Origin: Petroclostridium xylanilyticum
Lineage (GTDB): Bacteria; Bacillota; Clostridia; SK-Y3
Assembly: GCF_002252565.1 (NCBI RefSeq)
Contig: NZ_NPML01000007.1
Coordinates: 1-64,000, forward strand
Direction of reading: 5' to 3'
DNA: 64,000 bases
The position numbers and the translations under genes are program-made. Each line of letters begins with the position of its first letter. The stretch's first letter is position 1. This document shows, one piece after another, positions 630-25,166 of this stretch. The notes beneath the pieces are model-generated. The model had not been told where the DNA came from. It was given only the letters and a program-made list of their open reading frames with translations, and ran no database searches.

Positions 630-1673
630 ATGCTATTAAAAAAATTAACTGAGGCAATTGGAGTTTCCGGAAATGAAAAAGCTGTTAGAGACATTATTAT
701 AAAAGAAATTGGTAATGATTGTGAAAATATTGCCATCGACCGTATGGGAAATCTTATAGCTCTCAAAAAAGGTACAGAAGGTAATGGAAAAAAAGTGATG
801 CTGGCAGCGCACATGGATGAAGTTGGCTTAATCGTTACAGGAATCACTGATACAGGGTTTATTAAATTTAAGCCTGTCGGAGGTATCGATGCCAGAATTT
901 TAGTTTCCAAGAAAGTTGTTATAGGGGATAATAGAATTCCAGGGGTAATTGGTCTTAAAGCAATTCACCTGCAGGAACCCGGTGAAAGAAAACAGGCTGT
1001 AAAAGTTAAAAACCTGTACATAGATATTGGTGCCAAAAACAAAGAAGATGCTGAGAAAAAAGTAAACTTAGGGGATTATATTGGTTTTGATAGCAGCTGC
1101 GTTGAGTTTGGCAATAACCTGGTTAAGGCAAAGGCCCTGGATGACCGCGTAGGTTGTGCAATTCTCATTGAAATGCTAAAAGAAAGATACACATTTGATT
1201 TATATGCCTGTTTTACCGTCCAGGAAGAAGTGGGATTAAGAGGTGCCGGCGTGGCGGCATATACAGTCAGCCCTGATTTAGCACTTGTCGTAGAAGGGAC
1301 CACATGTTCAGATGTTCCAGGCGCAGAAGAACATGAACATGCAACAACTCTGGGGCATGGTCCTGCCGTATCTATCATGGATAGAGCATCCTATTCCAAC
1401 AAAGGTTTATCCCAGCTTCTATATAATCTGGGAAAAGACAATAATATCAAAGTCCAGTATAAGCGGACTACTTTTGGAGGTAATGATGCAGGCAAAATCC
1501 ATTTAACAAGAGAAGGTATTCCAACTGCTGCTATTTCAGTACCTTGCAGATATATCCATTCACCGGTATCGGTTATGAATTTGGACGACTACGAAGGATG
1601 TAAAAAAATTGTCCGGTTATTTTTACATGAGATTGGGAAAAAAGAAATTAATAAATGGGAGGAAATAAAATGA
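630..1673 (+). CDS. M42 family metallo-aminopeptidase
   Basis: 347 residues, the usual size for M42 (PepA/FrvX/YsdC-type) aminopeptidases, cytosolic dizinc enzymes that form large complexes and trim peptides. Expected metal and catalytic residues are visible: H61 in AAHMDE, D171/D172 in ALDDR, E199/E200 in VQEE, E222 in VEGTT and H310 in YIHSP. It overlaps the next gene by ATGA and is paralogous to it. The ribosome binding site is poor (only CGGA at about 620-623), although the second gene has a strong one. An IS200/IS605 right end lies within about 30 bases upstream and may have replaced the original leader. Substrate preference cannot be read from sequence. Confidence 0.93.
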   Translation: MLLKKLTEAIGVSGNEKAVRDIIIKEIGNDCENIAIDRMGNLIALKKGTEGNGKKVMLAAHMDEVGLIVTGITDTGFIKFKPVGGIDARILVSKKVVIGDNRIPGVIGLKAIHLQEPGERKQAVKVKNLYIDIGAKNKEDAEKKVNLGDYIGFDSSCVEFGNNLVKAKALDDRVGCAILIEMLKERYTFDLYACFTVQEEVGLRGAGVAAYTVSPDLALVVEGTTCSDVPGAEEHEHATTLGHGPAVSIMDRASYSNKGLSQLLYNLGKDNNIKVQYKRTTFGGNDAGKIHLTREGIPTAAISVPCRYIHSPVSVMNLDDYEGCKKIVRLFLHEIGKKEINKWEEIK

Positions 1674-2656
1674 TTGATTTACTAAACAAACTGACACAAA
1701 CCTACGGCCCTTCTGGAAATGAAGAACTGGTAAGGGAAGTTATTATGAATGAGATTAAAGAATATGTTGACGAAATAGATATAGATCCCTTAGGTAATTT
1801 AATTGCCAGAAAAAAAGGGGATGGGAAAAAATTAATGTTTGCAGCCCATATGGATGAAATAGGGCTGATTGTCACATATATTGACAAAGAAGGTTTTCTG
1901 AGATTTTCAAATGTTGGGGGAGTCTCCCAATACTATTCCCTATTTCAGAGAGTAAAATTCAAAAATGGTATTATAGGAATCCTGGGATATGAAGAAAAGA
2001 TTGAAGAAATGAAGGATTTAAAAATTGAGAAGATGTATATTGATATTGGCGCAAAAAGTAGAGAAGAAGCAGAAAAACTTGTGAATATCGGCGATGTGGC
2101 CTGTTTTGCAGGTGATTTTCACTATAACTTAAATAAGGTATCTTCCAAGGCTTTGGATGACAGGCTGGGATGTTATATGTTGATTGAAGTGATTAAAGCA
2201 TTAAAAAATCATTCCAATGACCTTTATTTTGTCTTTACCGTCCAAGAAGAACTCGGACTAAGGGGTGCCAAAACATCCGCTTTTTCTGTAAGTCCTGATT
2301 ATGCCATTGCGGTAGATGTAACTGACACCGGCGATACTCCCGGTTCAAAGCCAATGGCATTAAAACTTGGAAGAGGCCCTGCAATTAAAGTTAAGGATAA
2401 TTCAATTATCACCCATCCCTTTGTCCGTACTTTAATGATTGATACAGCAAAAGAAACGGGTATTCCATATCAGCTGGAAGTTTTAGAACGCGGAGGTACC
2501 GATTCCGGGGCCATACATCTTACAAAAGGCGGAATACCTTCAGGCGTCCTCTCTATTGCTACAAGATATATACATTCTCCTGCAGAAATGGTGGACTTTG
2601 ATGATGTTAAAAATGGAATTGCTTTATTAACTGCAATTGCAGCTAAAGAAATATAA
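1670..2656 (+). CDS. M42 family metallo-aminopeptidase (second copy)
   Basis: 328 residues. I start at ATG 1670, because GGGAGGAAA sits 6-12 bases before it and the ATGA overlap couples it to the preceding gene; an in-frame ATG at 1655 would fall before that site. Metal ligands match the family: H60 in AAHMDE, D163/D164 in ALDDR, E193/E194 in VQEE, D216 in AVDVTD and a C-terminal YIHSP histidine. The upstream paralogue has glutamate where this one has D216. M42 assemblies can be built from more than one subunit, so the pair may form a mixed complex; that is inference. Confidence 0.93.
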   Translation: MIDLLNKLTQTYGPSGNEELVREVIMNEIKEYVDEIDIDPLGNLIARKKGDGKKLMFAAHMDEIGLIVTYIDKEGFLRFSNVGGVSQYYSLFQRVKFKNGIIGILGYEEKIEEMKDLKIEKMYIDIGAKSREEAEKLVNIGDVACFAGDFHYNLNKVSSKALDDRLGCYMLIEVIKALKNHSNDLYFVFTVQEELGLRGAKTSAFSVSPDYAIAVDVTDTGDTPGSKPMALKLGRGPAIKVKDNSIITHPFVRTLMIDTAKETGIPYQLEVLERGGTDSGAIHLTKGGIPSGVLSIATRYIHSPAEMVDFDDVKNGIALLTAIAAKEI

Positions 2657-2738
2657 AATCAGTATTCCACACATGATACTACTCAACCTCTATGGTACAT
2701 GTAAGATATTTAATGCGATAAATATACAAACAAATAAA

Positions 2739-2766
2739 GCAGGATTTTAGCAGGTTTATGTAGAAT
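2739..2766 (+). promoter_or_regulatory. SigH-type promoter upstream of the beta-CASP gene
   Basis: GCAGGATTT (2739-2747), a 12-base spacer and GTAGAAT (2760-2766) match the Bacillus SigH consensus RnAGGAwWW-N11-12-RnnGAAT at every defined position. The start would lie about 80 bases before the ATG at 2854. A close variant occurs at 53431-53457. SigH drives entry into sporulation in known Firmicutes; its role here is inferred. Confidence 0.5.
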
Positions 2767-2853
2767 ATAATGTATAATATATATGTAATGTAAATTCTTT
2801 GATGCAATACATATAGTAATAAATACACTATAACAAAAGAGTGGGGTGGGGTC

Positions 2854-4485
2854 ATGAATGTTACATTTTTAGGGGCGGCAAAAACGGTTACAGGCTCATG
2901 TTACTATCTTGAGGTTAATAATAAAAAAATACTGGTGGATTGTGGCCTGTTTCAGGGACATGAAGGGGATAGGGAATTAAATTATGAGCCGTTCCCGTTT
3001 CGTATGGATGAATTGGATTATGTGCTGCTCACTCATGCGCATATAGACCACAGCGGCAGAATTCCAAAGCTATATAAAGATGGTTACAGGGGTGAAGTTA
3101 TTGCAACAAAAGCCACTGTTGAACTATGTGAAATCATGCTTCCTGACAGTGGACATATACAGGAGATGGAAATTGAATGGACTAACAGAAAAAGGTTAAG
3201 AGCAGGAAAAGCTCCTGTAGAACCTTTATATACGTATCAGGATGCCATTGATTGTATATCTGTTTTTAGAAAAGTATCCTATGATGAATTTATAAAGCTT
3301 CAGGGAAATATTACAATCCGGTTTAGGGATGCAGGGCATATTTTAGGCTCGTCCATTTTAGAAATGTGGGTGAATGAAAATGGTCATGAAACTAAAATCG
3401 TGTTTTCCGGGGATTTAGGTAATAAAGATATGCCTATACTGCGCGACCCAACCATTATAGATAGTGCCGATTATTTATTTATCGAATCCACTTACGGTGA
3501 CAGGTTGCACCATCAAAATGAAAACAAGGTAGAAAAGTTTGTAGATATTATTATTGAAACAATCGAAAAAGGAGGCAACGTAGTAATTCCTTCTTTTGCT
3601 GTAGGACGTACACAGGAAATTATTTATGACCTTCATAAACAGTTATCTAAATATGATGAAAAAATTAAAAAATTGTTCAATATCCCCGTATATGTAGATA
3701 GTCCATTGGCAATTTCAGCAACGGAGGTATTTAGAAACAATTTGGACTGTTATGATGAAGAAGCCAGGGAATATGTAAAAAATGGGGATAATCCTTTGGA
3801 TTTTCCGACTCTTAAATTTACGACAACGGCAGAAGAATCCAAAGAATTAAATGAAAAAGATGAAAAAATGATTATTATTTCTGCCAGCGGTATGTGTGAG
3901 GCAGGGAGAATCAAACATCATCTAAAGCATAACCTCTGGAGACCTGAATCAACAATATTATTTGTCGGCTACCAAGCTGAAGGAACGCTGGGAAGAAAAA
4001 TACTGGATGGGGCAAAAAAAGTGAGAATTTTTGGAGAAGAAATTTCTGTTAATGCGCGAATTGAATCCATTGACAGTTTTTCCGGGCATGCAGACCAAAA
4101 AGGCTTGTTGGATTGGATAGATGCCTTCAAGGATAAACCAAAGAAAATATTTATTATCCATGGGGAAGCGAACAGCCAAAAAATATTTGCAGAAAAGATT
4201 CAGCAGCAGTTTAATATAGAATGTATCATACCTGATAAAGGTGAAACCTTCTCCATTACACCAAATAGAGTAATTACTGCAGCAACTGCTAATGAACAGG
4301 ATAGGAAATATAGATATTCACGTCTTCAATTGTTAGAATATACCCGGTTAATTGAAGAAGAAGTACTGGAACTTTCTGACTTTATAAAAAATACTATCAC
4401 TAAAGAAACTGATGATATTATGGTAGAAAGTTTATTATATAAACTTAAAGATTTAGAAAAAAATCTTCGTACATTGGTTAAATAG
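2854..4485 (+). CDS. Beta-CASP metallo-beta-lactamase, CPSF-like ribonuclease family
   Basis: 543 residues. The N-terminal metallo-beta-lactamase fold has H61, H63, D65 and H66 in the motif HAHIDHSG, then H162 (AGHILGSS) and D187 (SGDLGN). A beta-CASP domain follows (SFAVGRTQE, SASGMCEAGR), then an RMMBL-type segment (DSFSGHADQKG). This architecture is shared by eukaryotic CPSF-73, archaeal aCPSF and bacterial homologues, which cut RNA. About 70 extra C-terminal residues are charged and helical. It stands alone, with a strong GGGGTGGGG ribosome binding site. RNA processing is the family expectation; the bacterial target is unknown to me. Confidence 0.87.
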   Translation: MNVTFLGAAKTVTGSCYYLEVNNKKILVDCGLFQGHEGDRELNYEPFPFRMDELDYVLLTHAHIDHSGRIPKLYKDGYRGEVIATKATVELCEIMLPDSGHIQEMEIEWTNRKRLRAGKAPVEPLYTYQDAIDCISVFRKVSYDEFIKLQGNITIRFRDAGHILGSSILEMWVNENGHETKIVFSGDLGNKDMPILRDPTIIDSADYLFIESTYGDRLHHQNENKVEKFVDIIIETIEKGGNVVIPSFAVGRTQEIIYDLHKQLSKYDEKIKKLFNIPVYVDSPLAISATEVFRNNLDCYDEEAREYVKNGDNPLDFPTLKFTTTAEESKELNEKDEKMIIISASGMCEAGRIKHHLKHNLWRPESTILFVGYQAEGTLGRKILDGAKKVRIFGEEISVNARIESIDSFSGHADQKGLLDWIDAFKDKPKKIFIIHGEANSQKIFAEKIQQQFNIECIIPDKGETFSITPNRVITAATANEQDRKYRYSRLQLLEYTRLIEEEVLELSDFIKNTITKETDDIMVESLLYKLKDLEKNLRTLVK

Positions 4486-12610: not shown

Positions 12611-13297
12611 ATGACTTATCATGAAATTATTATTACTGTTCTACTCAATGAAAACATACCAATGGAGAAAAGCTATGAAATAATATCCAGATTTATATCG
12701 AGAGCTATGCTGGGAGATCATCTGCTTAAGGAGTTGCATGAACAAAAAGGATATAAGCACTATGTTTTATGCAGCCTATATCCGTTAGAATCAGATAAGA
12801 TTTATCGAAAAGGGAGAATGTACGCATTCAACCTTAGAGGGCTTGATGTCAATTTTATCCTAAAGATGAAGCGTCTAATTATGACGGTTCAAGAGGGTCC
12901 AATGAAGGCTATTACTGCAGAAATTCGACAGCAGCATTATCGTCCTATTAGGGAGATTTATACGCTAACACCGGCGGTTGCTACCATAAACGGTAAAAGC
13001 TGGACAAGAGAAGACGGCATAGGGTTATTGATGGAGAGAATTCACATAAATGCTATCAAGAAGCATAGAAGTTTCTATGGTGATTTGCAGGAACCTGCAG
13101 AAAATTTTATTGAAGTGATTGAACAGACAAACGATAAACCCATCAGAATCCGCTACAAAAATACATCCTTGCTTGGATGCAAATTAAATCTGATAGTGAA
13201 ACAAGATGAACTCTCCCAGCGTCTTGCGTTTACCGTAATGGGTAGTGGATTGTTGGAAAAAAATACCATATGCTGTGGCTATTGCCGTGCCAAATAA
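12611..13297 (+). CDS. cas6: CRISPR RNA endonuclease Cas6
   Basis: 228 residues; first gene of the cas operon. The C-terminus GSGLLEKNTICCGYCRAK carries the glycine-rich loop and closing motif typical of Cas6. N-terminal histidines at 37, 43 and 50 are candidates for the catalytic base. Cas6 cuts the long array transcript inside each repeat, leaving an 8-base 5' handle (ATTGAAAT for this repeat). A strong AAAGGAGGTGG site lies just before ATG 12611. The next gene begins 13 bases after the stop. Confidence 0.9.
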   Translation: MTYHEIIITVLLNENIPMEKSYEIISRFISRAMLGDHLLKELHEQKGYKHYVLCSLYPLESDKIYRKGRMYAFNLRGLDVNFILKMKRLIMTVQEGPMKAITAEIRQQHYRPIREIYTLTPAVATINGKSWTREDGIGLLMERIHINAIKKHRSFYGDLQEPAENFIEVIEQTNDKPIRIRYKNTSLLGCKLNLIVKQDELSQRLAFTVMGSGLLEKNTICCGYCRAK

Positions 13298-13310
13298 GGA
13301 GGTGAAACGA

Positions 13311-15047
13311 TTGATTTATGATTTGTTGGAATACTTTAAAGATAATCCGCGCAGCAACCAGCTAGTGATTGACCAATACACACTTAAGAGTGGTCTGTAT
13401 ATCCGTCTGAACAAAGACGATACCGAAAGTATGCTGGTAGTGAAAAAACGGGAAATACCCCAGGGAGAGCTGTACGACTGGTTTAAAAAGGCTGATTATT
13501 TTAGTTGTATTACCGATACCAACAAAGCATTTGATGCTCCTAAAAAAGTCATGCACAATAATAATTATTTTACCCTGTTTTTTAAAACAAAATCCTTACT
13601 GGAACAAGGAAAGCTGAAAGATGATTTTATAGATCATGTTCCTGTTTTTTACGATAAACTGATACGAAAGCTGGATAGTAAAGATGTGTTGGATTTTTCT
13701 CAAAAGGCTGGATTAGTTCCGGTGAATGAGGAGGCAATTATCCATAACAGGGATATCATTCTTGAAAAGCTGCCGGAAATCGCGAGAAAAGCAGTGGAAC
13801 TTGAATTAAAAGATGATGACTATGTGAAGCTGTTTTTTGAAGAGGATATGGAAGCTTACCAGCGGGAATACATACGTTACTACTATCCTTATATCTTTAA
13901 TAAAAATGATTTTAATATTGCGCATGGCGGCACCATATATGGGTTATCGGCAGCAAACATGGGGCTCAATACAAAGAAACCTTTTTTGGAACACAAAACA
14001 ACCAATTTTAAGGTTCCGTTTCGTATCAGCCTTGAAGATGCAATGGAAGCAAAAAAGCTGTTTGAATGGTTATCAAACCAAAAGAATGAAGACGGTAAAC
14101 CTATTAATGAAGGGTATATTCCTTTGACGGACAAAGCACTTATTACGCTGGAAGATAAAATTACCAACAAACGGAATATGCATTATGTACATGTGGAAAA
14201 AGGAACAGATACCGTTATTGATGATTACGATTTTTTACCCGGAATCACTGATGAGATTAAAAAATTCGAACCCATTAACTATCTTATGCTGGAGTATTAT
14301 GATGCTCCTGCTACTTCATCCAGACAAAAAATGGAGCAGATGGTGGACAAGTATCTTTATGGTTTCAAACTAAAAAGGTATTATAAAACCAATCCCAAGG
14401 ATATAAAAGGGCTTTCTCATAAACTGATGAACCTGTTGCTGCTTTCGCGCAAGGCGATGGAGGATTTTTTCATCAAAGGGGATGACCGGGCAATAAGTCA
14501 TTGTGTAGACCGGATTACGTTAGGACTGGTAAAAGAGAAAATCAATGAAAAGGAAACGGTATTTTTTCATAATACCGGTTGTGCGATCAATATCCGGTTG
14601 GCATTGCTGAAATATTTTGACATAGGAGGTAAAAAGGATATGGGTGATAGAGTACGGCAAATGTTTGAGCGGCTTGCAGGCAAAGTTGACAGTGATGATG
14701 TTGCAGCCTGTGAGAATGACAGTGAATTTTATTTTGCAGCGGGACAGCTTGTACGGTATATTTTGCTACAAAGCGAAGCAAAGGAGCTGAATCATGATAT
14801 GGTAGATGCTTTTCTCAATGCTGCAAAGGTAAAAAGGTTTAAATATGAATTAAAAGGCATTTATCAAAAATATAATCATGCACTTAAATTGCGGAGTAGG
14901 CGGTTCAATCATCTTCTCAGTATGGTGATGGGATATGACATTGAAGACCATGCACAAATCGACTATGATATGTTTTTAGCAGGTCTGGCTGCAAAAAATG
15001 TAATGTATATGGTGAAGGAGGAGAATGATCATGAAAATGAAAAATAG
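13311..15047 (+). CDS. cas8b: Type I-B large subunit Cas8b
   Basis: 578 residues. I place the start at TTG 13311 because AAGGAGG lies at 13297-13303; earlier in-frame codons fall inside cas6. Position (after cas6, before cas7), size and composition match the Cas8b/TM1802-like large subunit of the type I-B interference complex, which reads the PAM and stabilises the target R-loop. I see no clear catalytic motif, as expected for Cas8. The family assignment rests mainly on gene order, because Cas8 proteins diverge fast. It overlaps cas7 by 17 bases. Confidence 0.82.
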   Translation: MIYDLLEYFKDNPRSNQLVIDQYTLKSGLYIRLNKDDTESMLVVKKREIPQGELYDWFKKADYFSCITDTNKAFDAPKKVMHNNNYFTLFFKTKSLLEQGKLKDDFIDHVPVFYDKLIRKLDSKDVLDFSQKAGLVPVNEEAIIHNRDIILEKLPEIARKAVELELKDDDYVKLFFEEDMEAYQREYIRYYYPYIFNKNDFNIAHGGTIYGLSAANMGLNTKKPFLEHKTTNFKVPFRISLEDAMEAKKLFEWLSNQKNEDGKPINEGYIPLTDKALITLEDKITNKRNMHYVHVEKGTDTVIDDYDFLPGITDEIKKFEPINYLMLEYYDAPATSSRQKMEQMVDKYLYGFKLKRYYKTNPKDIKGLSHKLMNLLLLSRKAMEDFFIKGDDRAISHCVDRITLGLVKEKINEKETVFFHNTGCAINIRLALLKYFDIGGKKDMGDRVRQMFERLAGKVDSDDVAACENDSEFYFAAGQLVRYILLQSEAKELNHDMVDAFLNAAKVKRFKYELKGIYQKYNHALKLRSRRFNHLLSMVMGYDIEDHAQIDYDMFLAGLAAKNVMYMVKEENDHENEK

Positions 15048-15948
15048 AGTGTACGGCGTAGTAGGAATTAAGAGCGTGATGTCCAATTGGAATGCTGATT
15101 TTACGGGAAGGCCTAAGACGATATCCAACGGCGATATCTTCGGCAGTGACAAGGCGTTCAAATATCCCATTAAACGCATGTGGCAGGCACAGGGTGAAAA
15201 AGTAGTATATATCAAAAGCTATAAAATAGAAAAGAATAAGCTTCAGCCCAACGATTTAAATGAACAATATACTAAAGTATTTGGCACTAAGCTGGATAAA
15301 AACACACCATCTCTTGAAGTGTTAAAAAATTTATTTTCTGCAGTGGATGTGATGAATTTTGGCGCGACGTTTGCTGAGCAAGGACAGAATATCAGCATTA
15401 CCGGTGCAGTACAGGTGGGACAGGGAATGAACAAGTATGAGGAAACCAATGTTGAAACCCAGGATATTTTGTCTCCTTTTAGGAATCCGTCCAAGGAAGA
15501 TGCGGACGCTTCCAGTTTGGGTACAAAAATCATTGCGGATGAAGCACATTATTTTTATCCATTTTCAGTGAACCCTCACAATTATGATGATTTCTTGAAT
15601 TTGGGAATAGAAGGTTTTGAAGGATATACGGTAGAAGCCTATGAAAAATTCAAAAAGGGCTGCCTGATTGCGGCAACGGCTTATAACACCAACAGCAAAT
15701 GTGGCTGCGAAAATGAGTTTGCTATTTTTATTAAGGTTAAAGAGAACAGTTTGCTGTATTTGGCTAATCTTGATACCTATATTGAATTTAGTAAAAAAGA
15801 TGGTAAGAATTATATCGACCTTACAAAGCTGGCGCAGCTCTTGTCAAGCAAAATGGCAGAGATTGAAGATATAGAAATATATTATAATTCCATAGATACC
15901 GAAGTAGGACTTGCAGGACTTACGTGTAAGACCTATCCATTGTATTGA
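15031..15948 (+). CDS. cas7: Type I-B backbone subunit Cas7
   Basis: 305 residues from ATG 15031, nine bases after AAGGAGG; an ATG at 15025 is too close to that site. The protein begins RVYGVVGIKSVMSNWNADF and contains NFGATFAEQGQNISITGAVQ, the RRM-type Cas7 core. Six or more copies would coat the crRNA spacer in the Cascade complex. It shares one base with the next start (TGATG), indicating translational coupling that keeps subunit ratios. Confidence 0.88.
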   Translation: MKMKNRVYGVVGIKSVMSNWNADFTGRPKTISNGDIFGSDKAFKYPIKRMWQAQGEKVVYIKSYKIEKNKLQPNDLNEQYTKVFGTKLDKNTPSLEVLKNLFSAVDVMNFGATFAEQGQNISITGAVQVGQGMNKYEETNVETQDILSPFRNPSKEDADASSLGTKIIADEAHYFYPFSVNPHNYDDFLNLGIEGFEGYTVEAYEKFKKGCLIAATAYNTNSKCGCENEFAIFIKVKENSLLYLANLDTYIEFSKKDGKNYIDLTKLAQLLSSKMAEIEDIEIYYNSIDTEVGLAGLTCKTYPLY

Positions 15949-16697
15949 TGGTGGTGGTAATGCAAATGGAAGCTCTAAAATTTACGCTTGCAGGAAAGAG
16001 TGCTTTTTTTAAAAAGCCCGATGTCAACACTAAAATTTATTTTACCTATAATAATATCCACAAGGTGGCATTGCTGGGCTTGTTAGGTGCAGTAACAGGA
16101 TTGAGCGGGTATTATAAAGATGAAGCAACCGACAAAAAAGGAAAGCCGGAATTTTATTCAAGCTTATGCAATTTGAAAGTATCAGTGGTTCCCAATGCCT
16201 ATAGAGGATATTTTACTAAAAAGATTCAGTATTTTAACAACAGTACAGGCTATGCTTCCGATGAAGAAGGAGGAAATCTGCAGGTCTTTGAACAGTGGTT
16301 GGAAAATCCTTGCTGGACCATTTATATATATAACGGAGGGATTTCTCAAGACTTGTGGAACAAGCTTTGTGATTATATTCAGAATAATAAGTGCGTATAT
16401 ATTCCTTATCTTGGAAAGAATGATCATCCTGCTGTAATCACCGATGCTGAAATGATAAAACTAGAACCGGTACAAGAAAATCATGTGGATTCACTGTTTC
16501 CCGGAAGTTTGGATCTCCTGGATGATACACAAGCATATCATGGAAGACCCTATATTTTTACCGAGTATGCGCCTTATGCATTGGAAGACAAATATAATTT
16601 CTATCTGTTAAAGCGTTTTATATATACAAATTGTCTGATTAAACAAACCATTCCGGATACTTTTCGCTACAATGAACTTGTATTGGCTTTTTACTAA
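15948..16697 (+). CDS. cas5: Type I-B Cas5
   Basis: 249 residues if started at ATG 15948, which overlaps the cas7 stop. ATG 15960 and 15966 are equally plausible, and homologues usually start near the MEALKFTLAG segment. The sequence MEALKFTLAGKSAFFKKPDVN-like opening (here residues ~7-27) and the G-rich turn LLGLLGAVTGLSGYY are characteristic of Cas5, which caps the 5' handle of crRNA. The upstream ribosome binding site is weak (GGTGGTGG). Confidence 0.88.
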   Translation: MVVVMQMEALKFTLAGKSAFFKKPDVNTKIYFTYNNIHKVALLGLLGAVTGLSGYYKDEATDKKGKPEFYSSLCNLKVSVVPNAYRGYFTKKIQYFNNSTGYASDEEGGNLQVFEQWLENPCWTIYIYNGGISQDLWNKLCDYIQNNKCVYIPYLGKNDHPAVITDAEMIKLEPVQENHVDSLFPGSLDLLDDTQAYHGRPYIFTEYAPYALEDKYNFYLLKRFIYTNCLIKQTIPDTFRYNELVLAFY

Positions 16698-16791: not shown

Positions 16792-16812
16792 CAGCTTAAA
16801 GGAGCGATGAAA

Positions 16813-19203
16813 ATGTACACGCTTTGTTGCATGGACAGTATTTTAGATAAGGCTCCCTATTGGGCCCATACGCATGAGAAAAAAACAAATGAACTTCTTG
16901 CTGAACACATGCAAAAATGTATGGATTATTTTGATCTTTACTGCCGGAAAAAGGATTTGGATAAAATAATTAGAAATACCATTAAGGCTTGTGGTATCAG
17001 TGAAATACAGACTGCATATGACATGTTTGTTAACGCAATCTATATGCATGATATCGGCAAGATAAACCCAAAGTTTCAAAGAGATGTTTTGGGAAACTTT
17101 TATTTCAAGAAAAGCTATGATGGTGATACAAGACATTCAATGGCATCTGCTTTCATTTATATTGATATTTTATACCCTAAAATTAAATATAACAAAACAC
17201 TTTCATATGTCTTGTTTACCTTTGCATATGTCATTTCAAGGCACCATGGTTCGCTGAAAAGTGCTGATGAATTTTTGCAGCAATTGAGTGACCTTGAAGG
17301 GTTGAATTATTATTCGCACCAAGCGGAAGAATGGATTGAAGATATCATAAGCACGGAAGAGGGCTACAGCCAAATCAAGAAAATGCTTAAGCTGAACGAA
17401 ATACCATTCTATATATTAAATAAGCTGCTTTTTGCTATGATTACCGCCTGTGATTACTGTGCCACCCATGAATATATTAATGGACAAGCAATGGATATAA
17501 ATGTGATTGAACATATTGATATGATGCGGAATACATATCAAGAAGGTGAGATTTACAAAGGGATACAAGCATATAAGCAGGATTCAGATTTTTTTGCGGA
17601 TTGTCCTATCAACGCGCTTCGTAGTGAAATATTTTTGGAAACAGAAAAACGGTTAGAGGAAAATGCTTCGGAGAAGATATTCTATCTTGAAGCTCCTACC
17701 GGAAGCGGAAAGACAAATATGTCCATTAATCTGGCACTTAAGCTGATTGAGATGAATAAAGAAATCAACAATATTTTTTATGTTTTCCCTTTTAATACCC
17801 TTGTAGAGCAGACAGCGGGTGTTTTAAATCAATACTTTCCTGAAGAAACAGCAGTAATCAACTCCATTACTCCAGTAATTATGGAAGAGGATGATGAAAC
17901 AAGCACCTCCTACGAAAAGGCTTATATAAACAGGCAGTTTTTTAATTATCCTATTGTAGTTACTTCTCATGTTAATTTATTCGGTGCCTTGTTCGGCTGT
18001 GACCGGGAAAATGGTTTTGCACTTACCAAACTATGCAACAGCGTTGTGATTCTTGATGAAATACAAAGTTATAAAAACAGCATATGGCGGCAAGTGATTA
18101 TGATGCTGGATAAGTATGCACATTTATTAAATATTAAGATCATCATTATGTCGGCGACATTGCCTAAAATGGATAGGCTTTTGGGAGAAGAAAGTAAAGG
18201 CTTCATAGAGTTAGTAAAGGATGTGGATAAATATTATCAAAATCCATTGTTTAAGGATCGTGTAAAGCTTGATTTTTCCATGTTGTCAGATAAGAAGATA
18301 GATTTGAATGCGCTTGCGAACAAAGTACTGGAATTTAAAGACAAAAAGGTATTAGTTGAATTTATAACTAAGGGAACTGCACGGGAATTTTATAATATCT
18401 TAAAAGATAGGTGCGAATCTGTAGAAGAGCTAACCGGAGATGATAATAAGCTGAAACGCCATGAAGTAATTGAAAAAATTAAGAATCAAAAGAGTATTAT
18501 TGTCGTTGCTACCCAGGTAATTGAAGCAGGAATTGATATAGACATGGATATAGGGTTTAAGGATTCTTCCATTCCGGACAGTGAGGAACAGTTTCTTGGG
18601 AGGATAAACCGTTCTTGTAGAAAAACGGGATGCATTGCTTTCTTTTTTAACTACGATAATCCACAGGTGGTATATAGAAATGATGCTCGAACCAATTATC
18701 CTATTACAGACAAAAAGATTTCTGAAATGTTGAAACAAAAGAAATTCGGAGAAATATATAATTTGGTCTTAAAGGATGTTTTTAATAAAACAGAACTATT
18801 GAATAATCAAAACATTTCTTTTTTATTAAGAGCGGCACTTATGTCAGATTTTGAGAAAATAGCAAAACAGTTTCGCTTGATCGAAAGAAATGCACAATTA
18901 TATCTTGCATATCAGATGAATACAGGTGAGGAAATCATAGATGGTCGAGAAATTTGGCGTAAGTTTAAGCAATTATGCTTAGATAAAGAAAAAGGATATG
19001 CTCAAAAAAAGGTGGAGCTTTCAAGGCTAGCTGAAAAGATGTCGTATTTTACATATAACGTATACAACATTGAGAATAAAAACTTCGGATGCGATGACGA
19101 ATTTGCAGGTTATTATTATATTGAAAACGGCGAAAGGTTTATTACCGATGGTAAGTTTGATCGAAAGGCTTTTTCAGCGGAATTTGGAGGGATGTTTTTG
19201 TAA
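16813..19203 (+). CDS. cas3: CRISPR helicase-nuclease Cas3 (HD plus helicase)
   Basis: 796 residues from ATG 16813, eight bases after GGAG; ATG 16807 is only two bases away from it. The N-terminal HD nuclease has YMHDIGK and ISRHHGS. The superfamily 2 helicase follows: Walker A in EAPTGSGKT (~294-302), the DEAD-like box DEIQ (~415-418), MSATLP, and motif VI FLGRINRSCR. Cas3 is recruited by Cascade and degrades the invading DNA. Both domains appear complete, with no frameshift. It shares one base with cas4 (TAATG). Confidence 0.95.
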   Translation: MYTLCCMDSILDKAPYWAHTHEKKTNELLAEHMQKCMDYFDLYCRKKDLDKIIRNTIKACGISEIQTAYDMFVNAIYMHDIGKINPKFQRDVLGNFYFKKSYDGDTRHSMASAFIYIDILYPKIKYNKTLSYVLFTFAYVISRHHGSLKSADEFLQQLSDLEGLNYYSHQAEEWIEDIISTEEGYSQIKKMLKLNEIPFYILNKLLFAMITACDYCATHEYINGQAMDINVIEHIDMMRNTYQEGEIYKGIQAYKQDSDFFADCPINALRSEIFLETEKRLEENASEKIFYLEAPTGSGKTNMSINLALKLIEMNKEINNIFYVFPFNTLVEQTAGVLNQYFPEETAVINSITPVIMEEDDETSTSYEKAYINRQFFNYPIVVTSHVNLFGALFGCDRENGFALTKLCNSVVILDEIQSYKNSIWRQVIMMLDKYAHLLNIKIIIMSATLPKMDRLLGEESKGFIELVKDVDKYYQNPLFKDRVKLDFSMLSDKKIDLNALANKVLEFKDKKVLVEFITKGTAREFYNILKDRCESVEELTGDDNKLKRHEVIEKIKNQKSIIVVATQVIEAGIDIDMDIGFKDSSIPDSEEQFLGRINRSCRKTGCIAFFFNYDNPQVVYRNDARTNYPITDKKISEMLKQKKFGEIYNLVLKDVFNKTELLNNQNISFLLRAALMSDFEKIAKQFRLIERNAQLYLAYQMNTGEEIIDGREIWRKFKQLCLDKEKGYAQKKVELSRLAEKMSYFTYNVYNIENKNFGCDDEFAGYYYIENGERFITDGKFDRKAFSAEFGGMFL

Positions 19204-19688
19204 TGCTTACCGGTACTATTGTAAATTACTATTTTCACTGTAAAAGACAGTGCTGGCTGTTTTACAATAAGCTGAATATGGAAGATAATTCAGAAGATGT
19301 ACATATCGGACGGGTATTGCACGAATTAAAATTGGGAGATTCCCCGGATGCAGCTATTGAGAATGTCAAACTTGATAAAATCACTCCTGAATATGTGATT
19401 GAGATGAAAAAATCCGATGCAGATTTAGAAGCTGCAAAAGCACAGCTTATGTTTTATTTATTAAAATTGGAGAGCAAAGGAATTATGCGAAAAGGACGGC
19501 TTGAGTGTATCGAAAAGAATAAGCAAGATAAGAAAGTGCATATTGTTGAGCTGACTGATGAAAATAGACAGAAGTTTGAGTTGCTTTGCAGAGAGATTGA
19601 GAACTTCTTAACTTCTCCCACTCCTCCTGCTGCAATAAAAGAAAACAAATGTAAGAAATGTGCCTATTATGAATACTGCTTTGTTTAG
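19203..19688 (+). CDS. cas4: CRISPR adaptation nuclease Cas4
   Basis: 161 residues. Four cysteines fit the Fe-S cluster of Cas4: C13 or C17 near the N-terminus and C150, C153, C159 at the end. The RecB-like nuclease region shows GRVLHE, the IEMKKS motif and QLMFYL. Cas4 trims new spacers and selects the PAM together with Cas1-Cas2. The start codon overlaps the cas3 stop, and cas1 follows within about 12 bases. Confidence 0.93.
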   Translation: MLTGTIVNYYFHCKRQCWLFYNKLNMEDNSEDVHIGRVLHELKLGDSPDAAIENVKLDKITPEYVIEMKKSDADLEAAKAQLMFYLLKLESKGIMRKGRLECIEKNKQDKKVHIVELTDENRQKFELLCREIENFLTSPTPPAAIKENKCKKCAYYEYCFV

Positions 19689-19700
19689 GAGGGAACGTTG

Positions 19701-20986
<1,286 letters not shown>

Positions 20987-21175
20987 CTTTTTCCAACCAC
21001 AAGTGTAAAATTGACATATAATATATTGGTGTAACCATTACTATAAACAGGTTAGATGGTTTATACAAAAGTAAGAGGCATTTTATTAAGTGCACTTGGA
21101 AAAAATAGTAGCAAAATTAGAAATCATGCGGTATCATATACTATAGTTGCAGTACAAAACCTGCATTTTATTTTG
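20987..21175 (+). promoter_or_regulatory. CRISPR leader
   Basis: 189 AT-rich bases between cas2 and the first repeat. The repeat orientation (ATTGAAAT at the 3' side of each repeat) puts the leader on this side. It contains TTGACA (21011-21016) and several AT boxes but no properly spaced -10. An inverted pair TAACCAT ... ATGGTTTA spans about 21032-21063. GCAG/CCTGC can pair about 12 bases before the first repeat. Confidence 0.75.
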
Positions 21176-24100
21176 GTAGAACCGAAACATACGATGTATT
21201 GAAATATAATATCAAAGATGTATTCAATGCAGTAATACAGTGTAGAACCGAAACATACGATGTATTGAAATTACATGAATAAGCTTATCGAAGCAAACAA
21301 GCAATAGTAGAACCGAAACATACGATGTATTGAAATTTAGCTGAATAACGCGGTCAAATAAGCCGTGTCGAAGTAGAACCGAAACATACGATGTATTGAA
21401 ATTGGAGTTAAAGTTTCCGAACAGACGACTTCCGTTGGTAGAACCGAAACATACGATGTATTGAAATATAATAAGGTTTTCGCCTTCATAAAATAGGGCG
21501 TAAGTAGAACCGAAACATACGATGTATTGAAATATCTGTTTTTCTGTTATCTCGATCATGCTTAATCACGTAGAACCGAAACATACGATGTATTGAAATA
21601 CAGTAAGGGTTACGGAAGTTCAGTTGATTAACACGTAGAACCGAAACATACGATGTATTGAAATACCCTCAATTTCGCGGCTGTGACTTCCTGAACGGGG
21701 GTAGAACCGAAACATACGATGTATTGAAATTAAATCTTTTCTTTAAGTTTGAATGGTTCCATTATTGTAGAACCGAAACATACGATGTATTGAAATTTAC
21801 AAGCAATTCATACGGAATTTCAAGGGCTGCGCGTAGAACCGAAACATACGATGTATTGAAATATAAGACTAAAAATATTAAAGACATAGGAATAAAGGTA
21901 GAACCGAAACATACGATGTATTGAAATTCCAGCAGTATGTCGTTCCCTGGGCATGTTGCCTTTGTAGAACCGAAACATACGATGTATTGAAATAAGTGTA
22001 GACCAGTACTGATTGATAATATAATACGTGTAGAACCGAAACATACGATGTATTGAAATTAGAGTCTTTTGACTGCTGCAACAAGCATTTTCCTGTAGAA
22101 CCGAAACATACGATGTATTGAAATACGCCCGGCACTGCGGGAAGCGCCGCTGGATCCGTTGTAGAACCGAAACATACGATGTATTGAAATGAAAAACATA
22201 CTCTCTCAATTTTCTGCCCATCAGGAGTAGAACCGAAACATACGATGTATTGAAATACCACGCTCCAAAGCAATTCCACATTATAAAAAGCGTAGAACCG
22301 AAACATACGATGTATTGAAATATAAAATAAAATGTATCTCAATTTTAGAACCTGATTCCGTAGAACCGAAACATACGATGTATTGAAATATATCTGAACA
22401 TGAGAAGTTGCAAAAGATTGAAGCTGTAGAACCGAAACATACGATGTATTGAAATCCGCAACACGTTGGGCGTACTACAAAGGTGTGCTTAGTAGAACCG
22501 AAACATACGATGTATTGAAATTTTTTACCGTATTTTGAAGTAAATTATAGCCCCTGTAGAACCGAAACATACGATGTATTGAAATATCTTTAAAACAGGT
22601 TTACCATTCGACCCTACTTTAGTAGAACCGAAACATACGATGTATTGAAATTTTTTTATCAAATATAACTTTGATCTTAACTACCTGTAGAACCGAAACA
22701 TACGATGTATTGAAATGTTAATGGAAGAATGCAAATCAGAACAGGAAGCGCAGTAGAACCGAAACATACGATGTATTGAAATTTAAACACAAAACTAACT
22801 GACAAATTGGAGTCTACAAGTAGAACCGAAACATACGATGTATTGAAATAAAATTGCATTGGCTGTATAATCATTGCAGAATTTAGTAGAACCGAAACAT
22901 ACGATGTATTGAAATGTTTTAACCATTGTTTAACCTCCCTAAATTATATTAGTAGAACCGAAACATACGATGTATTGAAATTTGTATTACATTGTAAATA
23001 AATGGAAATAATATATAGTAGAACCGAAACATACGATGTATTGAAATGGCTTCATTGCTTTTAACTCCGTTTCCTCTGTTATTGGTAGAACCGAAACATA
23101 CGATGTATTGAAATTGAACTCCCTAAGGTTTATTATTTACCTAGTGAACAGTAGAACCGAAACATACGATGTATTGAAATTTGCTCCAGCACGTTATAAA
23201 AACTATAGCGTGCTGGTAGAACCGAAACATACGATGTATTGAAATTTAAGTACCACAGATAAATCAACACCTGTTAAATCGTAGAACCGAAACATACGAT
23301 GTATTGAAATCAAAAAAAACCTCCATTCTTAAATTAATCAAGCCTAGTAGAACCGAAACATACGATGTATTGAAATAAAATCAAACAGTGAAGGCAGATT
23401 CTTTAAAAAACGTAGAACCGAAACATACGATGTATTGAAATTCGAATTTAAGAGTAAGGTCTGCTGCGAGCATGGCTGTAGAACCGAAACATACGATGTA
23501 TTGAAATTCTGTGACGCCTGATCCATATCCTTATAAGCAGTTTGTAGAACCGAAACATACGATGTATTGAAATTCCGGATTTGATGCTTTTACCACAGCA
23601 ATGCTTAGGTAGAACCGAAACATACGATGTATTGAAATTATGCAAGCCATTTTCCTATATGTTTTCTTCTTATGTAGAACCGAAACATACGATGTATTGA
23701 AATATAACAGAAAACAGATGGAAATATGTTGCAGCGGATTAGTAGAACCGAAACATACGATGTATTGAAATGCGACACAGGGAGAAGTGGAAGTATTGAC
23801 TAATGGTAGTAGAACCGAAACATACGATGTATTGAAATATTGCAGGAGTAAAAGGTTACAGCGAATGGCTAAAAGGTAGAACCGAAACATACGATGTATT
23901 GAAATTCTTGCTAAAAAAATAGAATTATATAAAACCGAAAGTAGAACCGAAACATACGATGTATTGAAATTTTTTTTCTCTCTTTGAGCATTTTGGTTGG
24001 TTTCAAGTAGAACCGAAACATACGATGTATTGAAATACTTTTAAAACAGGTTTACCATTCGACCCTACTTTGTAGAACCGAAACATACGATGTATTGAAA

Positions 24101-24297
24101 TCGTCTGATATGTTGGCACCTATAACTGATGCTATAAGTAGAACCGAAACATACGATGTATTGAAATTTGAAAAGTACGCAAATATATAAAGAAATGGAT
24201 AAGTAGAACCGAAACATACGATGTATTGAAATAAGACAGGAAAAAGGTTATTTTCTGCCATTTATTAGTAGAACCGAAACATACGATGTATTGAAAT
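21176..24297 (+). CRISPR. CRISPR array, 48 repeats and 47 spacers, type I-B
   Basis: The 30-base repeat starts GTAGAACCGAAACATACG and ends ATGTATTGAAAT. I count 48 copies, all identical as read, with 47 spacers of 34-38 bases (mostly 35-36). ATAC and GTAT inside the repeat can form a short hairpin next to the expected Cas6 cut, which would leave ATTGAAAT as the 5' handle. The adjacent operon and the leader position support left-to-right transcription and new spacers at the left. Spacers 22 (22586-22621) and 44 (24037-24071) are almost the same. The last repeat is intact and touches an istB fragment, unlike the degenerate end usual for old arrays. Confidence 0.98.
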
Positions 24298-24806
24298 ATA
24301 ATGTACAATAAGAAGCTTAAAACGCTAAGTTCTCTTGAATTTATATCTACCGGTCAAAACGTGATACTCGCAGGGAATCCCGGTACAGGTAAAACCCATC
24401 TTGCGATAGGATTGGGCATAAAAGCTTGCCTTAAAGGCTATAAGGTGCTTTTTACGACAGTGCCTATACTAATAAACCAGCTTAAAGAGAGCCGTTCAGA
24501 GAAGAACTTACGGCTTTTGAAAATAGGTTTGAGAAATATGATCTGGTTATAGCAGATGAACTAGGTTACATTTCCTTTGATAAGGAAGGATCTGAACTGC
24601 TGTTTACCAATCTATCATTAAGGGCCGGGAGAAAATCAACAATTATAACTACTAATTTATCATTTGAAAGGTGGGGAGAGATATTTAAGGATCCTGTCAT
24701 GACAGCTGCAATGATTGACAGACTAACTCACAAAGCTTACATAGTGAATATGAACGGTAACTCATTCAGGCTCAAAGAGACCAGAGAATGGATGCAGAAA
24801 CAATAA
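24298..24806 (+). pseudogene. istB: IstB-like ATPase (IS21 family), truncated and frameshifted
   Basis: The frame from about 24298 carries NKKLKTLSSLEFI and a Walker A motif AGNPGTGKTH. It then hits a frameshift near 24511-24513 (one base missing), after which another frame continues AFENRFEKYDLVIADELGYISFD to a stop at 24804-24806. About 90 N-terminal residues of a normal IstB (~250 aa) are missing, because the last CRISPR repeat sits in their place. No istA is present. IstB helps target transposition of IS21 elements; this copy cannot be functional. Confidence 0.85.
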
Positions 24807-24940
24807 TTTTAACAACCATGTCATAAGAAGGGGGGCGAATAGTTTAAGAAGTTTATTTAAGGCTACCTGCAACTCGGGAGAAAAAAGTTTTTTAAGTGCG
24901 GTTTACAATGAGATGTTCCTGTATGATAGCCTGTTAAGGC

Positions 24941-25034
24941 GCCAGCCGCCCATCTCCCTCTATGCTCGAACTTCATAGCCATACTTCGAGGGGGTGGGGG
25001 CTGGCCCCATCGGCTGGCTAATCATAGAGGGGAG
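24941..25034. repeat. GC-rich island with interleaved complementary arms
   Basis: GCCAGCCG (24941-24948) is complementary to CGGCTGGC (25011-25018), and CTCCCTCTATG (24954-24964) to CATAGAGGGGAG (25023-25034) with one bulge. The order is 1-2-1'-2', as in a pseudoknot. CTCGAA (24965-24970) and TTCGAG (24985-24990) form a hairpin in the middle. It could be a structured RNA or transposon end. Confidence 0.45.
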
Positions 25035-25166
25035 GCTCGTTGTCAACCGGATTCTTGAAAAAGTTTTTTCCCTATGTGAAAGGAAAATTCTAATGTTAAT
25101 TATTTACACTAATGTCATCTTTAAGAGGGGTAAAATTTAATTATAAAAAGGGTGGGTTGTTCTATT

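Follow-up and report, generated by a model that had tools for sequence, protein, structure and literature searches.

Spacers 22 and 44 of a CRISPR array in Petroclostridium xylanilyticum were likely captured independently and on separate occasions from one and the same protospacer position in two variants of one element family. The array lies in the window, the stretch of 64,000 nucleotides (contig NZ_NPML01000007.1, positions 1 to 64,000, forward strand) that was analyzed. The two spacers are as follows.

22586 to 22621, + strand: spacer 22, 36 nt, ATCTTTAAAACAGGTTTACCATTCGACCCTACTTTA, the newer by polarity
24037 to 24071, + strand: spacer 44, 35 nt, ACTTTTAAAACAGGTTTACCATTCGACCCTACTTT, the older by polarity

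Positions 4–35 are identical in both spacers, and this run of 32 consecutive bases suggests that they share one protospacer. Positions 2–3 are TC in spacer 22 and CT in spacer 44, both changes being transitions, and spacer 22 has one additional A at the 3' end. The same difference can be aligned equivalently as a 1-nt deletion together with one base gained in a homopolymer (A[T]CTTT- / A-CTTTT). The sequence-only reading had placed the pair at exactly these coordinates, with the 32 shared consecutive bases and the TC/CT change, all of which we confirm; its further difference of one base at the end also stands as a single 3' base, but this is a difference in length, 36 versus 35 nt. Among 47 spacers, an identity of 32 bases has an expected number of about 1e-14 by chance. 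The next best pair, spacers 6 and 39 on opposite strands, scores 13 against 32 for the pair described here. With 16 matches and one gap it is at chance level (11 of 100 dinucleotide shuffles reach a score of 13), and we reject it as a second pair. No near-identical pair occurs among the 79 further spacers in the arrays of relatives.

Three reading frames are open in both spacers. The reverse frame, KVGSNGKPVLK, has a synonymous codon pair (AAG/AAA) at the first change and ATN/GTN at the second, while in the other two open frames both changes would fall in one codon. The pattern in the KVGSNGKPVLK frame is what natural coding variants would give, a weak hint given that three frames are open.

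The age of the spacers and the meaning of positions 2–3 depend on the orientation of the locus, which comprises the following features.

12611 to 13297, + strand: cas6b (PADLOC Cas6b, E=4e-79)
13245 to 15047, + strand: cas8b, large subunit for PAM and seed recognition (PADLOC Cas8b CAS-I-B, E=2e-138)
15025 to 15948, + strand: cas7b (Pfam PF05107, E=4e-34; PADLOC Cas7b, E=1e-35)
15945 to 16697, + strand: cas5b (NCBIfam TIGR02592 above cut-off; PADLOC Cas5b, E=7e-43)
16807 to 19203, + strand: cas3, HD nuclease and helicase (TIGR01587 and TIGR01596 above cut-offs)
19203 to 19688, + strand: cas4 (TIGR00372 above cut-off)
19698 to 20702, + strand: cas1b (TIGR03641, type I-B Cas1b, E=4e-118)
20699 to 20986, + strand: cas2 (TIGR01573 above cut-off)
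20987 to 21175, + strand: leader, between cas2 and the first repeat, by direct reading of position and direction
21176 to 24297, + strand: CRISPR array, 48 repeats and 47 spacers of 34–38 nt

The genes cas6b-cas8b-cas7b-cas5b-cas3-cas4-cas1b-cas2 lie upstream of the array on the same strand, with ORFs all of full model length. Cas8b (13245–15047) is assigned by the PADLOC model only and matches no NCBIfam or Pfam family at the thresholds used. By gene content the locus is a complete type I-B set, covering both interference and adaptation. The repeat is GTAGAACCGAAACATACGATGTATTGAAAT, 30 nt long and identical in 48 of 48 copies, and in the 3.86-Mb genome the array at 21176–24297 is the sole array with this repeat. 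The 3' end of the repeat is ATTGAAAT, which we take to be the usual type I-B 5' handle, its length also being assumed from established knowledge. The leader on the cas2 side puts the newest spacers at the left end of the array, and the handle together with the position of the leader makes the 5' end of each spacer the PAM-side seed. Both points, newer spacers to the left and positions 2–3 in the seed, had been proposed from the sequence, and the ATTGAAAT handle and leader position support them. The array thus contains two spacers of different age by polarity with differences at seed positions.

A simple sequence of events would produce such a pair. The cell would meet two sequence variants of one mobile-element or phage family at separate times, and Cas4-Cas1-Cas2 would cut both prespacers at a common PAM-side boundary. 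The distal prespacer ends would fall one base apart, a normal length slop (35/36 nt), and both lengths are inside the array's own range of 34–38 nt. The resulting guides would differ at seed positions 2–3, and each would probably work best against its own variant. In type I-B of Thermotoga maritima, a mismatch at any of positions 1–5 or at position 7 leaves little or no binding (PMC13199841), and on these data we predict that guides 22 and 44 probably cross-protect poorly. Both the existence of two variants and this pattern of cross-protection are what the two spacer sequences suggest.

Repeated sampling of one site needs no special cause. With ~1000–3000 usable sites assumed for one element family, 47 spacers taken from it would be expected to include 0.4–1.1 coincident pairs. 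Independent capture of one protospacer is also documented, which counts for two captures here: in type I-C priming in Legionella, 2 of 23 independent acquisitions fell at the same protospacer (PMC5071653). As there, one protospacer could be caught more than once here without special selection. The Legionella recapture, however, is experimental and has an invariant target, whereas spacers 22 and 44 come from one natural array. The pair is in our view a clean but ordinary case of a known phenomenon, in which one protospacer is sampled repeatedly. The interpretation in the sequence-only reading, either a second encounter after seed escape or adaptation primed on a variant, is retained in part. 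The renewed encounter with a variant is the best reading, given the common PAM-side end, the differing lengths, the unrelated neighbours and the repeats without drift; escape and priming fare less well, as discussed below.

What counts against two captures is that a protospacer was found for neither spacer in the collections searched, and with it neither variant. IMG/VR was scanned with a codon-degenerate pattern for KVGSNGKPVLK (strict and loose), with the other two open frames, with the exact 22-mer core and with the exact 17-mer halves; no protospacer for spacer 22 or spacer 44 was found in these pattern and exact-core scans. The left 17-mer half gives 19 matches with 9–15 mismatches across the spacer, and the loose pattern gives two, with 13 and 15 mismatches over 33 bases. 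All of these are chance matches. GTDB r220 contains nothing for the degenerate spacer core and nothing for the CRISPR repeat, and phage and plasmid records queried with spacer 22 and with the entire array return weak chance matches only. At up to 3 mismatches, the array itself is the sole match in its own genome, 60 relatives and 391 genomes of the class. A protospacer pair carrying the two-base change, which had been anticipated from the sequence, is therefore not found in IMG/VR, GTDB r220, the phage and plasmid records, or the own and related genomes. Elsewhere in the array, spacer 32 has a partial self-match on contig C18 that does not extend across the spacer.

A more specific history would make the pair a trace of escape. 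Spacer 44 would have selected an element mutated at seed positions 2–3, beyond the reach of cutting by crRNA 44, and the escaped variant would later have been resampled at the same protospacer to give spacer 22; priming from the imperfect match may have assisted. This history is one particular form of the two captures, and our confidences in the two overlap; we consider it possible but tentative. The differences are indeed at positions 2–3 and the newer spacer is to the left. The T. maritima type I-B data, in which mismatches at these positions abolish or nearly abolish binding (PMC13199841), also speak for it, as does a direct precedent in Legionella type I-C, where mismatches in the seed or PAM are confined to the older spacer and the newer one matches perfectly (PMC5071653). 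The statistics do not favour escape, however. The probability that both differences fall in positions 1–5, 7 and 8 by chance is 0.035 if they are independent and 0.15 if they are an adjacent pair, values computed post hoc, after the pattern was noticed. The two captures are separated by 21 unrelated spacers, and with no matching protospacer found there is no PAM or direction of change to read. Priming, moreover, is not preferential for the same protospacer: primed spacers typically derive from other parts of the target, beginning close to the priming site along the displaced strand (PMC5059440). Variants already coexisting among related phages account for the pair without escape. It is possible but rather unlikely that seed escape and re-vaccination at the same protospacer are naturally recorded here for a bacterial type I-B system, the pre- and post-escape guides both being kept in the array. 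If escape is true, the array would hold both guides, and the interference and priming that each brings about on either allele would be directly testable in bacterial type I-B, for which acquisition data are few (PMC8406132).

The closest known case is that of Legionella pneumophila Toronto-2005, whose type I-C spacers include pairs, one member older than the other, directed against overlapping sequence of the element LME-1 (PMC5071653, Fig. 7B); escape and natural priming are the explanation proposed by its authors (PMC5071653). As there, one system holds two spacers of different age, and spacers 22 and 44 presumably also have overlapping target sequence. In Toronto-2005 the element is known, and compared with the present LME-1 the older spacer is mismatched in the seed or PAM, whereas the newer one fits perfectly. 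That system is type I-C with a known target, whereas spacers 22 and 44 are type I-B and known from the array alone. Interference against variant protospacers in Legionella was measured in another strain, Lens, with a type I-F system (PMC5071653).

Two captures from two variants must also be weighed against copying within the array. Recombination or slippage could have duplicated a spacer-repeat unit, one copy of which then acquired three changes. In general, repeated spacers arise most often by duplication (PMC11472070). In that broad survey, ~3% of spacers are duplication candidates, of which 86% are classed as duplications and ~1% as reacquisitions; the survey groups almost identical spacers and is not specific to divergent pairs, and we count these rates against two captures (PMC11472070). 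The pair resembles the SpacerPlacer survey cases in that one array carries a spacer twice, in identical or almost identical form (PMC11472070). Those cases are mostly classed as duplications, but the sequence, length and context of spacers 22 and 44 argue against copying. A copy made within the array would at first match in both length and sequence, and these two do not. In place of an identical copy, copied neighbours or equal length, we find three differences, unrelated neighbours and lengths of 36 and 35 nt. The copies are 22 units apart. Neighbours 21 and 43 are unrelated, as are 23 and 45, so no block was copied. Duplication would also require that one copy changed by two substitutions and by 1 nt in length with none of the 48 repeats altered. 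The comparison is 3 changes in 36 spacer nt versus 0 in 1440 repeat nt (Fisher p ~1e-5), which argues against duplication plus drift. The fair control for drift is the older repeats, since new repeats arise by copying from the leader end, and the older repeats are also perfect. Duplication is an unlikely origin for the pair, and the particular course of one copied unit with three later changes is highly improbable.

It is likewise very improbable that there was one protospacer sequence and that the difference is an error, whether from imprecise end processing at capture or from sequencing or assembly. In favour of an error, the difference is at the extreme 5' end of the spacer, can be aligned as a pair of single-base indels that compensate each other, one of them in a T run, and belongs to a 41-contig assembly in which read quality is not visible. 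Against it, two adjacent changes and a length change are required, both spacers are within one 474,732-bp contig with distinct neighbours, and we know of no established mechanism by which Cas4-Cas1-Cas2 would misincorporate bases at the PAM-side end.

A genome of the same family has a related array just downstream of a Cas1 that is 90% identical. Its repeat, GTAGAACCGATACATAGGATGTATTGAAAT, is closely similar to GTAGAACCGAAACATACGATGTATTGAAAT; the array starts 477 bp past the cas1 match and the leader is partly similar. The spacers are wholly different from those of the array at 21176–24297. The cas1 gene of this same-family genome (L057, G003:C1:142000-161500) looks split, with codons 1–50 followed by a stop and, ~1.4 kb on, codons 32–334. 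From its sequence, this appears to be an insertion or a duplication of a part. Compared with phages, the array of a relative gives one weak match, in a Yersinia phage.

At the distal, old end of the array the last repeat is perfect. About 8 bases on is a 5'-truncated, frameshifted relic of an IS21 istB gene (24298–25151). Copies in the same genome, at C18:269540 and C19:31482, share 97% identity with it across 847 bp and have an open istB frame (265 codons). The old end of the array appears to be cut off, and older spacers together with the usual degenerate terminal repeat were probably lost through an IS-linked deletion. The first base of the spacers (21206–24267) is A or T in 39 of 47, which exceeds the 64.5% A+T of the spacers overall and is perhaps a trace of PAM-side selection. 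Spacer 31 (23181–23215) forms an almost perfect inverted repeat, CCAGCACG...CGTGCTG, such as a terminator or hairpin would give, and its crRNA could self-fold.
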